A stretch of DNA of 64,000 nt. Origin: Epilithonimonas zeae (GTDB lineage: Bacteria; Bacteroidota; Bacteroidia; Flavobacteriales; Weeksellaceae). The position numbers and the translations under genes are program-made. Shown here one piece after another: positions 15,563 through 48,653 of this stretch (position 1 is its first letter; each line of letters begins with the position of its first letter). The stretch covers positions 3,720,001 through 3,784,000 of the forward strand of contig NZ_CP075338.1 in the NCBI RefSeq assembly GCF_023278365.1. The letters are read 5' to 3'. The notes under the pieces were generated by a model, which had not been told where the DNA came from, did not search any database, and was given only the letters and a program-made list of their open reading frames with translations.

Positions 15563-15863
15563 CCAAAAAGTAGTATCTTTAAACACTAAAATTTATTGTC
15601 TCAATTTGAAATAATAAAAATTTAGGAGCTATTTCCCGCTTTCCACTATATCTTTTTTTGTTTAGAAGATTCAGTCATAAAAACAAAATTTCTACAAAAC
15701 AAAAAAAGGATGCCGTTGCAAATCGAGGAACGAGATTCGACGATTCAAAAACAAAATAAAAAAGGATAGAGTCAATCGGGGCTAGGGCATTGGACATAAA
15801 ATAAAAATTCAACAATTTGTAGAGGATTCAAAGCCTCAAATAAATTTTTTGAAAATTTAAAAT
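15563..15863. other. 301-nt gap inside the glucan locus, largely a dispersed repeat
   Basis: No coding frame of substance is present. Positions 15624-15787 are a copy of a dispersed repeat (listed separately). The remainder is AT-rich and may hold a promoter for the esterase and GH3 genes, but I cannot point to a clear TAnnTTTG box. Confidence 0.6.
15624..15787 (+). repeat. long dispersed repeat, copy 1 (CCCGCT ... ATCGGGGCTAG type)
   Basis: It begins GGAGCTATTTCCCGCT, has CTATATCTTTTTTTGTTT, an A-rich complement (AAACAAAAAAAGGATGCCG) and ends with AATCGGGGCTAGGG. The second copy at 48540-48620 shares both ends but has a shorter centre. The T-run and A-run can fold into a hairpin. Copy 1 carries an extra central insertion of about 80 nt. 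Confidence 0.7.
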
Positions 15864-43191: not shown

Positions 43192-43212
43192 ATCATACTA
43201 ATTTAGTATGAT
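43192..43212. promoter_or_regulatory. 21-bp palindromic operator candidate before the oxoamine synthase gene
   Basis: ATCATACTA and TAGTATGAT are perfect complements separated by ATT, so only the central base breaks the symmetry. The site covers the expected -33 region of the promoter whose -7 box TATTTTTG is at 43227-43234. This is a strong candidate for a dimeric regulator, which is not encoded nearby. Confidence 0.6.
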
Positions 43213-43226
43213 ATCGAAAATTATTC

Positions 43227-43250: not shown

Positions 43251-44489
43251 ATGGATATATTTGATAGAATAGAGAATAACCCAGGTCCGCTTGGGGAATA
43301 CGCAACTTATGCAGACGGAGAATATATTTTTCCTCAATTAGAAGGAGAGATTTCTACTAAAATGTTTTTCAAAGGGCAGGAAATGATAGTTTTCAGTCTC
43401 AACAATTATCTTGGTCTTGCCAATCACCCCGAAGTCCGAAAAGTAGATGCTGAAAGTGGACAATCTTACGGTTTGGCATATCCAATGGGATCCAGAGCTA
43501 TGACGGGCCAAACAATTCATCATCAGCAATTAGAAAAAGAGTTGGCAGAATTTACTCAAAAAGAATCTTCGTTATTATTGAATTTCGGTTATCAGGGAAT
43601 GTTTTCTTTGATTGATACTTTGTTGACAAGAAATGATGTAGTGGTTTATGATTCTGAAAGTCACGCTTGTGCCATCGACGGAATCAAACTGCACAGAGGA
43701 AAACGCTTTGTTTTTGCACATAATGATATGGGTAGTCTTGAGAAGTCACTTCAAAAAGCTTCAAAGATTATAGCAGAAACGGGCGGTGGAATCTTGGTCC
43801 TGACAGAAGGCGTTTTCAGTATGAATGGAGAACAAGGCAAGCTAAAAGAAATTGTTGAACTCAAAAAAAAATATCCTTTCCGATTGATTGTGGATGATGC
43901 GCACGGTCTTGGAGTGATGGGCAAAAATGGAGTAGGAACGGGCGAAGAGCAAGGCGTCCAGGATGATATTGACCTTTATTTTTCTACGTTTACAAAGTCA
44001 TTTGCCGGATTCGGTGCTTTCGTTTCAGGAAAGGCGAGTGTCATCAAATATATCAAATACAATATTCGGTCACAGATTTTTGCCAAAGCTTTACCAATTG
44101 TAATGGTTATCGGAATCAGAAAAAGATTAGAATTAATAAAACAAAATCCTCAATTCCGAACGCTACTTTGGGACAATGTATTCAAAATTCAGAAAGGTTT
44201 AAGAGATTTGGGATTCGATATTGGAAAAACTAATACTTGCATTACACCGGTTTTCATCAAAGCTGATACTTTGGACGCGACCTTAATCGTCAAAGAATTG
44301 AGAGAAGTTCACGGGATTTTTACAAGTATAGTAGTTTACCCGGTTATTCCAAAAGGATTAGTAATGCTGAGAATTATACCAACAGCAGAACATTCTGACG
44401 AAGAAATCAATCAATTGCTATTAGCTTTTGAAAGTTTGAATAAAGGGAAAGAAAGTCAGCCAATATTAACAAATAATGAATTTGTGTAA
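43251..44489 (+). CDS. alpha-oxoamine synthase (serine palmitoyltransferase or cysteate acyltransferase type)
   Basis: The 412-residue protein is a fold-type I PLP enzyme of the alpha-oxoamine synthase family: NNYLGLANHPEV, YPMGSRAMTGQTIHHQQLE, DSESHACAIDG, LIVDDAHGLGVMG, and the PLP lysine in TFTKSFAGFGAF. These enzymes join an amino acid with an acyl-CoA or acyl-ACP. In Bacteroidota the candidates are serine palmitoyltransferase (sphingolipids) and the cysteate-using homologue that makes capnine-type sulfonolipids; the sequence alone does not decide between them. It is a single gene with a strong palindromic operator candidate upstream. Confidence 0.88.
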   Translation: MDIFDRIENNPGPLGEYATYADGEYIFPQLEGEISTKMFFKGQEMIVFSLNNYLGLANHPEVRKVDAESGQSYGLAYPMGSRAMTGQTIHHQQLEKELAEFTQKESSLLLNFGYQGMFSLIDTLLTRNDVVVYDSESHACAIDGIKLHRGKRFVFAHNDMGSLEKSLQKASKIIAETGGGILVLTEGVFSMNGEQGKLKEIVELKKKYPFRLIVDDAHGLGVMGKNGVGTGEEQGVQDDIDLYFSTFTKSFAGFGAFVSGKASVIKYIKYNIRSQIFAKALPIVMVIGIRKRLELIKQNPQFRTLLWDNVFKIQKGLRDLGFDIGKTNTCITPVFIKADTLDATLIVKELREVHGIFTSIVVYPVIPKGLVMLRIIPTAEHSDEEINQLLLAFESLNKGKESQPILTNNEFV

Positions 44490-44505
44490 ATTTAATTCAT
44501 ACTTA

Positions 44506-44536
44506 TTTGATGGGAATTAAATAATTTATATATTTG
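44506..44536 (+). promoter_or_regulatory. promoter of the leader-peptide attenuator operon
   Basis: The -33 TTTG (44506-44509) and -7 TATATTTG (44529-44536) boxes are separated by exactly 19 nt, the ideal Bacteroidota spacing. The predicted start of transcription near 44541-44543 leaves about 12 nt before the leader ORF. Confidence 0.75.
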
Positions 44537-44554
44537 CAATGTAATTAAGAAATA

Positions 44555-44602
44555 ATGAAACAGATTTTCTCACAGATGGCGATGATGTGTAATACGAACT
44601 GA
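44555..44602 (+). CDS. 15-residue methionine-rich leader peptide
   Basis: The frame encodes MKQIFSQMAMMCNTN: Met at 1, 8, 10 and 11 and Cys at 12, four Met and one Cys in 15 codons. It starts about 12 nt after the predicted transcription start. Its codons 4-7 (44565-44573) pair with 44611-44619, so ribosome stalling at codons 10-12 would cover that arm and change the RNA fold. This is the sensing element of the attenuator that follows; charging of tRNA-Met or tRNA-Cys is the likely signal. Confidence 0.75.
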   Translation: MKQIFSQMAMMCNTN

Positions 44603-44658
44603 AGAGTGCGGTGAGAAGACTATGACATAAAGCTTCATCTTACCGATGGAGCTTTTTT
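44565..44658 (+). promoter_or_regulatory. trp-like transcription attenuator (antiterminator and terminator)
   Basis: Four segments form exclusive pairs. Segment 1 TTTTCTCAC (44565-44573) pairs with segment 2 GTGAGAAGA (44611-44619). Segment 2 CGGTGAGA (44609-44616) can instead pair with segment 3 TCTTACCG (44638-44645). Segment 3 AAAGCTTCATC (44629-44639) pairs with segment 4 GATGGAGCTTT (44645-44655) to make a terminator followed by a T run to 44658. Stalling on the Met/Cys codons hides segment 1, frees 2 to pair with 3, and prevents termination. Confidence 0.78.
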
Positions 44659-44676: not shown

Positions 44677-45108
44677 ATGGAACAAACAAAAAAATATTAT
44701 ACAGACGAAAATACCGTAAGACTCACCGCATTTTTTGTGATTGTTGTGGTTTCTGTATCCCTGTTTTTTGATTTGCCATATTTATTGTTGCTCTTAGTTT
44801 TTGATTTTATTATTAGGGCTTCTGGCTTATTATTTTCGCCTTTAGCCCTTTTTTCAAAATCGATTTTAAAAATATCAGGATTGAAACCTAAACCAATTTT
44901 TGCAGCTCCAAAGAGATTTGCTGCGACATTGGGTTCAATCTTTACACTGACAATTGTTGTATTGATGTTGACCGGATTCTACAATGTTGCTTTAGGATTT
45001 GGATTGATATTGATTCTTCTGGCTGCTTTGGAAAGTTTTTTCAAAATCTGTGTCGGGTGTTACATCTTCCAAGTCATTGTTGTTCCAATCCAAAATAAAC
45101 TTAAATAA
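44677..45108 (+). CDS. DUF4395 membrane protein, attenuator-controlled
   Basis: The 143-residue protein has four membrane helices and the DUF4395 pattern, including the loop KPKPIFAAPKRFAA and the C-terminal motif FFKICVGCYIFQ with a C-x2-C pair. The family is of unknown function; members often lie near thioredoxin or rhodanese genes, which hints at sulfur or redox chemistry at the membrane. It follows the Met/Cys leader-peptide attenuator by 18 nt from the T run and precedes the NIL-domain gene by 24 nt, so the two form one regulated operon. Confidence 0.88.
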   Translation: MEQTKKYYTDENTVRLTAFFVIVVVSVSLFFDLPYLLLLLVFDFIIRASGLLFSPLALFSKSILKISGLKPKPIFAAPKRFAATLGSIFTLTIVVLMLTGFYNVALGFGLILILLAALESFFKICVGCYIFQVIVVPIQNKLK

Positions 45109-45132: not shown

Positions 45133-45441
45133 ATGATTTACAAACAAGAAACTACAGGCAAAACTTTTTTCCCGAAATCGACGAAACAAATAATCCTTGA
45201 AATAGAACTGAACGGGAAAATCAGATTTGACATCCTACTTTACACGATTTACAATCATTACAATGTGAGTTACAAAATCGTAAATGCTAACATCGAATAT
45301 CTGAACGGAAGCAATTTCGGAAATGTGAAACTGCTTTTGAACATTAGTCAAGACCAAATCGAAAAGATAGAAAACTATCTGAGAGAATATAAATTGCTGA
45401 GCAGCAGAATAGACGTTCTACAAAAAAAGGAAGCTTCTTAA
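45133..45441 (+). CDS. stand-alone NIL-domain-like protein
   Basis: The 102-residue protein resembles a NIL domain, the ferredoxin-like ligand-binding module usually found at the C-terminus of the methionine importer ATPase MetN, where it senses methionine. The pattern here is TKQIILEIELNGKIRFDILL, NVSYKIVNANIEYLNGSNFG, GNVKLLLNISQDQIEKIENYL. It is encoded directly after DUF4395 under the Met/Cys leader attenuator, which fits a methionine-linked role. It has no ABC ATPase partner in the window. The domain call is by pattern, not by search. Confidence 0.7.
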   Translation: MIYKQETTGKTFFPKSTKQIILEIELNGKIRFDILLYTIYNHYNVSYKIVNANIEYLNGSNFGNVKLLLNISQDQIEKIENYLREYKLLSSRIDVLQKKEAS

Positions 45442-46811: not shown

Positions 46812-47483
46812 TTATCTTCTTTTATTTTTATGATTTTGGAAATTATTTTTCCTGTTATTATTGTTATTGTGGTTTTGATTTCTGTTGTTGTTTCTATTAT
46901 TATTGTTGTTGTTGTTGTTGTTCCTGTTGGTCGCATAATAGATTTTACTTTTGTCCAGAGAATCCAGTCCTGTAAGGTCTAATCTGTTTTTAGAAAGCTC
47001 CTTGAGATGACGGAAAATCACATCATCCTGAACGTGTTCTTTGTTGTACACGTTGTAGGACTTCTTCATATTGTTGGCGATTACCTGAATCAAAGCATCT
47101 TTCTCATCACCTTCTTCCAAAGCAATCGCAGTTTCTATCAGCTGAAGAATACTTTTTCCGTAGAATTTATAATCATTTTCCAAAGAAGGATAATCCATTT
47201 TCCTTGGTTTTGTGATCAGATCTTCTGCGCTTAAAATCGGGTAAGGAGAATCTACATCCAGATTATGATCTGCCAAGATGAAAAGATGATCCCAAAGTTT
47301 GTGCTTGTAATTTTCCTCGTCGCGAAGGTGTGGGTTTCTTTGTCCCATAAACTCGACAATTGCAAGCGCCATCTCATTTCTTTCTTCCTTGGTCTGCAGC
47401 GTTTTGCAATGCTCTACGAGTTGTTGTATGTTGCGCCCATATTCGGGCATTAGTAGTTGTGTTCTGTCGGTATTATATTCCAT
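46812..47483 (-). CDS. DUF4290 family protein with poly-Asn tail
   Basis: I take the ATG at 47483 (MEYNTDRTQLLMPEYGRNIQ), because the ATG 21 nt upstream overlaps the -7 promoter box TATATTTG (minus strand, 47491-47498). This leaves a nearly leaderless mRNA. The 223-residue protein is a helical DUF4290 domain (about 1-180) of unknown function, then a low-complexity tail of Asn with Arg, Gln and Lys (about 187-223) encoded by AAC/AAT repeats. It is in one operon with murA, suggesting a link to cell-wall or growth control. Confidence 0.85.
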   Translation of the reverse strand: MEYNTDRTQLLMPEYGRNIQQLVEHCKTLQTKEERNEMALAIVEFMGQRNPHLRDEENYKHKLWDHLFILADHNLDVDSPYPILSAEDLITKPRKMDYPSLENDYKFYGKSILQLIETAIALEEGDEKDALIQVIANNMKKSYNVYNKEHVQDDVIFRHLKELSKNRLDLTGLDSLDKSKIYYATNRNNNNNNNNNRNNNRNQNHNNNNNRKNNFQNHKNKRR

Positions 47484-47490
47484 AATATTG

Positions 47491-47498
47491 CAAATATA
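47491..47498 (-). promoter_or_regulatory. -7 promoter box for the DUF4290-murA operon
   Basis: TATATTTG on the minus strand ends 7 nt before the chosen start codon, so transcription would begin only a few bases upstream of the ATG. Confidence 0.55.
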
Positions 47499-47507
47499 AA
47501 ACATTTC

Positions 47508-48539: not shown

Positions 48540-48620
48540 AGGAGCTTAATCCCGCTATCCGCTATATCTTTTTCTTTTTTTGCTAAAAAAGAAAAAGGAT
48601 GCCGCTACTATCGGGGCTAG
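48540..48620 (+). repeat. long dispersed repeat, copy 2
   Basis: It begins AGGAGCTTAATCCCGCTATC, continues CGCTATATCTTTTTCTTTTTT, then the complementary AAAAAAGAAAAAG, and ends GGATGCCGCTACTATCGGGGCTAG. It shares both ends with copy 1 (15624-15787) but lacks that copy's central insertion. Confidence 0.75.
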
Positions 48621-48653
48621 TGAGCAATTCAACGTTGAAATTAGTTCCACTGT

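Follow-up and report, generated by a model that had tools for sequence, protein, structure and literature searches.

Leader-peptide attenuators of the trp, his and ilv operons consist of a short ORF with control codons, alternative stems and an intrinsic terminator before the operon. The locus analysed here lies in a 64,000-nucleotide stretch of the Epilithonimonas zeae genome (the window) and resembles these systems in its ORF with control codons, its predicted alternative stems and its terminator directly before the operon. It differs from them in its leader, which has a single Cys codon after Met, in its Bacteroidetes host and in its genes, which encode a membrane protein and a NIL protein instead of a biosynthetic pathway; moreover, no Rfam model matches. 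In MetN-type ABC transporters, NIL is the ligand domain of MetN. The locus shares the NIL domain with MetN-type operons, and metN genes of the same family have Met/Cys leaders of their own, but the NIL protein of the window is free-standing (102 aa) and paired with DUF4395.

For mycobacteria, polycysteine short ORFs were described as acting by translation attenuation of cysteine biosynthetic genes (Canestrari 2020, as cited in PMC13236596). In the accessible part of the citing paper, cysteine codons of an upstream ORF are tied to sulfur genes, as here; unlike there, an intrinsic terminator is present and the genes are for uptake or uncharacterised. For Flavobacterium psychrophilum, leader-peptide attenuation was reported from transcript maps upstream of amino-acid biosynthesis operons (PMC9723704). 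This is likewise flavobacterial leader-peptide attenuation, but the accessible part of that paper names no cysteine, metN, NIL or DUF4395 leader. Leader-like short ORFs of B. thetaiotaomicron are mentioned in general terms in the accessible part of PMC7366714, and the accessible part of PMC2965389 mentions neither 'Bacteroidetes' nor 'Flavobacteri'. A literature search, with most subscription journals outside its scope, yielded among the papers listed no cysteine-codon attenuator described in Bacteroidetes. In the same search, the titles and abstract starts listed contained nothing on the window leader, DUF4395 regulation or free-standing NIL proteins in Bacteroidetes.

The DUF4395-NIL locus

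The initial annotation had described a promoter, a 15-codon ORF with defined Met and Cys positions, three pairings, a T run and an 18-nt spacing to the DUF4395 gene. All of these were confirmed by direct reading. Features are given in window coordinates.

43195-43214 (genome 3763195-3763214), + strand: further operator-like site, upstream of the cysteate-acyltransferase-like gene and with one mismatch to the pattern
43251-44489, + strand: cysteate-acyltransferase-like gene, upstream of the leader
44491-44521, no strand assigned: operator-like inverted repeat TTTAATTC..GAATTAAA, overlapping the -33 box; similar sites at cysH, metN and the cysteate-acyltransferase-like gene
44506-44536, + strand: promoter TTTG-N19-TATATTTG, read from sequence (TTTG 44506-44509, TATATTTG 44529-44536)
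44555-44602, + strand: leader ORF MKQIFSQMAMMCNTN, stop TGA, found in 22/23 genus genomes
44565-44573, + strand: region 1, partner 44611-44619
44609-44619, + strand: region 2, alternative partners region 1 (via 44611-44619) and region 3 (via 44609-44616)
44629-44658, + strand: intrinsic terminator with covariation, stem 44629-44639 with 44645-44655, then T run
44638-44645, + strand: region 3, antiterminator half, partner 44609-44616
44677-45108, + strand: DUF4395 membrane protein (PF14340, Pfam), 143 aa, CxGCY invariant in the aligned set
45133-45441, + strand: free-standing NIL domain protein (PF09383, Pfam), 102 aa

TTTG-N19-TATATTTG was taken as a Bacteroidetes-type promoter from its match to the consensus. 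The leader ORF has ATG at codons 1, 8, 10 and 11 and TGT at codon 12 (44588-44590). Its Met-Cys control pair occupies codons 11-12 (44585-44590), corresponding to codons 10-11 of the commoner 14-codon leaders. All three pairings are made of standard pairs only, with one G-U each. The T run ends at 44658 and DUF4395 starts 18 nt further, at 44677.

Both protein identities assigned initially lie above the Pfam gathering scores (DUF4395, 98.6 bits vs 24.5, E 4.5e-28; NIL, 38.1 bits vs 24, E 1.4e-9). With the predicted fold of DUF4395 (pLDDT 85.4), no PDB match was obtained at E up to 0.001. The window NIL protein had a single PDB relative at E up to 0.1, MetN chain 2qrr (E 0.049). For the acyltransferase-like gene, the nearest solved relative by sequence was 28eh, a cysteate-C-fatty acyltransferase (E 4.8e-168); NCBIfam returned models of the wider family alone, all below their cut-offs. 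Cysteate-C-fatty acyltransferase has a role in sulfonolipid synthesis.

The fold of the window leader had a z of -2.28, and 0/200 shuffles were as stable. Among 484 ATG-started window ORFs of 10-36 codons, 4 contained MC, 14 contained CC and 3 had a terminator-like site at most 75 nt behind; the leader was the sole one combining MC or CC with such a site. Conservation is stronger evidence than these chance tests that the leader is real. Elsewhere in the window, Flavo-1 RNA matches were found at 48544-48622 (-) and 15628-15734 (-), and the DUF4290 protein at 46812-47504 (-) has a long asparagine/arginine-rich tail.

Leader conservation and folding

A DUF4395 relative is encoded in 20/23 Epilithonimonas genomes, and a leader of the same plan precedes all 20 genes. 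The covariance model R1 was built from these 20 leaders, which match by construction. With R1, 22/23 genomes were matched; the two additional ones, G005 and G015, lack DUF4395, and their leader is followed immediately by NIL, which itself is present in 22/23 genomes. The sole genome without the leader, G012, lacks DUF4395 and NIL as well. An extra record (L207, PS02293) carrying MYQNCSNMMMCNTN was added, giving a comparison set of 23 loci (20 + G005 + G015 + L207) with 18 distinct sequences. Further copies in the window's own genome (G000) were rejected: R1 gave a single match at E up to 0.01, and a DNA pattern for MMCN codons hit 10 places vs 8 for the reversed control, the nine besides the leader being examined for their reading frames. 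R1 matches outside the genus (L054-L056) were rejected too, being terminator-like sites that follow other genes and have no leader. The G005 NIL gene seems broken near its 3' end (G005:C1:62620-62926; L070, L051), with a second short piece containing a stop; DUF4395 is also missing there.

Start, Met-Cys pair and a stop are fixed in the 18 distinct leaders, and the other positions vary. When the extra codon of the four 15-codon leaders is omitted, every leader has ATG at codon 10 and Cys at codon 11 (TGT 16, TGC 2). Stop codons of all three kinds are used. One indel of a whole codon lies inside the ORF, and those of 1-2 nt are confined to the sequence behind it. Across these leaders Met is as invariant as Cys, of which the window leader has one codon.

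Relative to the window protein, the DUF4395 proteins behind the leaders comprise a group with 68-97% identity, one protein with 54% and a group with 40-48%. The two groups (alignment A2, rows L012-L020 vs L001-L010) are found behind closely similar leaders, and this sequence pattern suggests gene replacement under a fixed switch.

For the terminator, a covariation score of 0.284 was obtained vs a shuffled mean of 0.209 and was reached by 0/500 shuffles; 12 cells of the alignment were changed on both sides. Pairing is kept in 78% of cells for the 1:2 stem and in 82% for the antiterminator, both better than slid versions. In alignment A3, neither of these two showed covariation beyond shuffles; some covariation may be masked by gap placement differing between two clades. 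A lack of conservation of leader codons or stems had been named in the initial annotation as one outcome that would refute the proposal: the codons and the terminator are conserved, whereas the 1:2 stem and the antiterminator do not covary.

For stall folding, the transcript up to the terminator loop was folded with a ribosome footprint placed at each codon of the 23 leaders. Mean antiterminator probability rose from 0.38 for the transcript without ribosome to 0.70 when Cys occupied the A site, and fell to 0.41 three codons later. By stall position, means were 0.63-0.70 between the eighth codon upstream of Cys and the first one downstream, then 0.58 and 0.41. Stalls eight to one codons before Cys already gave 0.63-0.68, so folding fails to pick out Cys; the drop just behind the Cys codon is the behaviour required of an attenuator. 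In 17/23 leaders, placing Cys in the A site raised the value by over 0.1. The window leader was near flat (0.61 without ribosome, 0.63 at Cys, 0.57 at the stop), as were L002, L006, L051 and L207; L011 remained low. In equilibrium folds of the whole leader, with the ribosome placed on Cys, the terminator won (0.95 or more) in 18/23 leaders, including the window copy (0.95), and dropped in five (L002, L006, L009, L051, L207). Antitermination in the 18 would thus have to be kinetic. As to the initial view of three exclusive pairings as a switch, the 1:2 stem and antiterminator recur in the folds of 17/23 leaders, but the window copy barely responds and these two stems lack covariation.

Cysteine-codon leaders and operator-like sites at related genes

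Besides the window-type leader, Cys-codon leaders with a terminator and a sequence of their own were found in the family at DUF4395, metN and EamA genes. Within the genus, metN was detected in 18/23 genomes at E up to 1e-100. An absence of MetN from the genus, considered at one point, was rejected on this count; the NIL query had passed over the NIL part of MetN. An operator-like site and a terminator (CCTTTCAT..GAAAGG) were present at 18/18 genus metN genes. Between them, the short ORF contained CC in 15/18 and one Cys in 2/18; 1/18 had no comparable ATG ORF. Several of these leaders, e.g. MLKFVCCIRFI, have the start as their sole Met.

In genus g20, probably Chryseobacterium, leaders precede metN or EamA. 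The covariance model R2, built from 10 g20 leaders, matched 47 genomes (10 by construction), of which 30 were read. Their leaders have MMMxCCM-type cores with Cys in 30/30; 20 cores end in CCMP and 10 are variants, each with Cys and two or three Met before it. Without ribosome, antiterminator probability in the 30 leaders was 0.65; stalls as far as three codons past the core gave 0.63-0.69, and later ones 0.37-0.45. The core stall is thus not above the ribosome-free state, and the fall behind the core alone fits attenuation. A text criterion (CC and at least 3 Met) missed the leaders in 10 of 11 EamA regions; R2 recovered leaders in all ten genomes. R2 matches L266-L268 were discarded as leaderless terminator-like sites that follow other genes. 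In a g26 genome (G135), a MQTEVKNKTMKNSKDMNKMMMCYRMKMQRCCRI leader and a terminator are followed by EamA, DUF4395 and metN in one row.

In genus g10, an MNCCC leader with terminator GTCCTC..GAGGAC precedes a distant-branch DUF4395 in 4/7 genomes with DUF4395 (G097, G105, G059, G088). It was absent at the G075 and G031 genes and at the best of three G111 copies. Met in these leaders is limited to the start and the M of MNCCC. In three of the four, the value was 0.95-0.99 for stalls at N-C-C-C and 0.13-0.35 for those a few codons further on. L281 rose from 0.09 without ribosome to 0.95-0.96 at N-C-C-C-P-F stalls and fell to 0.13-0.19 from the second Asn; L282 rose from 0.41 to 0.98; L283 was at 0.92 already without ribosome and fell behind the codons. 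L280 showed a small rise (0.32-0.37 at Cys); the start of its NCCC ORF, chosen by script, is unlike that of its relatives, and its profile was set apart. In Bacteroidetes bacterium 43-16, which is outside the family, a peroxiredoxin-like gene is followed by DUF4395 and then metN; no leader was found immediately upstream of its DUF4395. Cys codons are shared by all leader sets and internal Met codons are not. Peptides before different genes have little in common beyond Met and Cys.

For the operator search, a degenerate inverted-repeat pattern was run on 5 genus genomes, with the reversed pattern as control. It gave 26 matches vs 1 for the control. As read by eye, 19/26 lie before genes in promoter position and the other 7 seem unrelated. 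The 19 comprise the DUF4395-NIL leader (5), cysH (5), metN (4), the cysteate-acyltransferase-like gene (2), a Cupin_8 gene (2) and a peroxiredoxin gene (1). Among 21 cysH upstream regions, ATACTAATTTGGT was present in 18 and ATACCAATTTGGT in 3. Pfam assigned PAPS_reduct to cysH and to the cysD-like gene behind it, a GTP-binding domain to the cysN-like gene, ABC_tran and NIL to metN, and Cupin_8 and AhpC-TSA to the remaining genes. The occurrence of the site at cysH and metN, judged by sequence, supports a link to sulfur. We presume some resemblance to sites of Rrf2-type regulators. Operator-like sites were also seen at the Cupin_8 and AhpC-TSA peroxiredoxin genes of genus genomes (L159, L164, L154), and the regulon may be broader than sulfur uptake. 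The free-standing NIL gene of g20 (L079-L086) has a palindromic site like CTACTAATTTGGTAG at its promoter. Read by eye, this operator-like site was present in 8/8 loci and a leader or terminator in none of them.

Proposed mechanism and alternatives

We consider the locus to be, with a probability of roughly 0.75, a trp-type leader-peptide transcription attenuator of DUF4395-NIL whose main signal is charged tRNA-Cys, perhaps alongside tRNA-Met. An attenuator layered on a sulfur operator is the best reading. The missing covariation of the 1:2 stem and antiterminator, the weak response of the window copy in folding, the single Cys codon and the equal invariance of Met count against it. The leader is conserved, its Met-Cys codons are fixed and its terminator covaries; Cys-codon leaders recur on related genes, with which the operator-like site is shared. 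From there we infer that the ORF is translated, that ribosomes stall on it, which amino acid is sensed, that antitermination takes place in the cell and that a regulator acts on the operator. When cysteine is scarce, region 1 would be covered by a ribosome stalled at the Met-Cys pair, codons 11-12 of the window leader. Regions 2 and 3 would then pair, the terminator would be delayed or blocked and DUF4395-NIL would be transcribed. With ample cysteine, the ribosome would reach the stop codon, regions 1 and 2 would pair after its release and the terminator would halt transcription ahead of DUF4395-NIL. The promoter-overlapping operator common to cysH and metN would add a second sulfur-dependent layer.

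The initial annotation had left methionine and cysteine side by side as signals. A responsive operon of this kind is supported, with the emphasis moved to cysteine by the CC codons of 15/18 metN leaders, by those metN leaders with a start Met alone and by MNCCC in g10. Because Cys codons are common to the leader sets and internal Met codons are not, and given the sulfur operator, the switch was read as cysteine-responsive, with methionine as the weaker alternative. The same attenuator could sense methionine by stalling at the Met before Cys and at the further Met codons of some leaders. This Met is invariant, another one directly precedes it in 6/18 distinct leaders, two or three precede Cys in g20, and NIL is the domain by which MetN binds its ligand. 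Yet 12/18 distinct leaders have one internal Met, leaders such as MLKFVCCIRFI have none, and those of g10 add only the M of MNCCC. Met is also the start codon, and a shortage of tRNA-Met would slow initiation generally. Methionine is an unlikely signal, though the foremost of the alternatives.

Regulation by the operator alone, with the hairpin as a constitutive partial terminator and the ORF as a by-product of region 1, would agree with the wide sharing of the operator-like site and with covariation that backs the terminator only. It is improbable: the whole-codon indel, the invariant Met-Cys pair with TGT/TGC exchange and the use of all three stops speak for coding, and related genes repeatedly carry Cys leaders that differ in sequence.

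Copper-responsive upstream ORFs exist in other bacteria, and a Met/Cys peptide could bind metal or arrest the ribosome by its own sequence. Met and Cys are metal ligands and an IFSxI[IM]MCN-like short peptide is kept across the genus. The IFS codons, however, double as region 1 of the stem, peptides at different genes hardly agree outside Met and Cys, and the operator-like site ties the set to cysH and metN; we regard a sensor of this kind as quite improbable. Control by a riboswitch or T-box, which a structured 5' leader ahead of a sulfur operon might suggest, is very improbable given the coding signal and the lack of any Rfam match at gathering score near the site (at relaxed threshold, the sole match of the window leader was a snoRNA with 12.4 bits vs a cut-off of 45; no riboswitch or T-box match was found at g20 locus L238 or at the own metN locus L169).

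Returning to the cysteine-responsive attenuator, such switches might have originated, or been rebuilt, repeatedly within one family, on a small common set of genes (DUF4395, free-standing NIL, EamA and MetN); this is a tentative proposal, with the odds somewhat against it. If the several leaders are as they look, the switch was rebuilt from new sequence around a sensed codon that was kept. In G135 and Bacteroidetes bacterium 43-16, metN immediately follows DUF4395, which points towards a role in sulfur supply. If repeated origin is true, DUF4395 would be an unrecognised membrane part of the uptake of cysteine or sulfur compounds, acting with MetN or a free-standing NIL sensor. Through the leader, the poorly known proteins DUF4395 and free-standing NIL become open to tests of their regulation, and their production under cysteine shortage would imply a role in sulfur supply.
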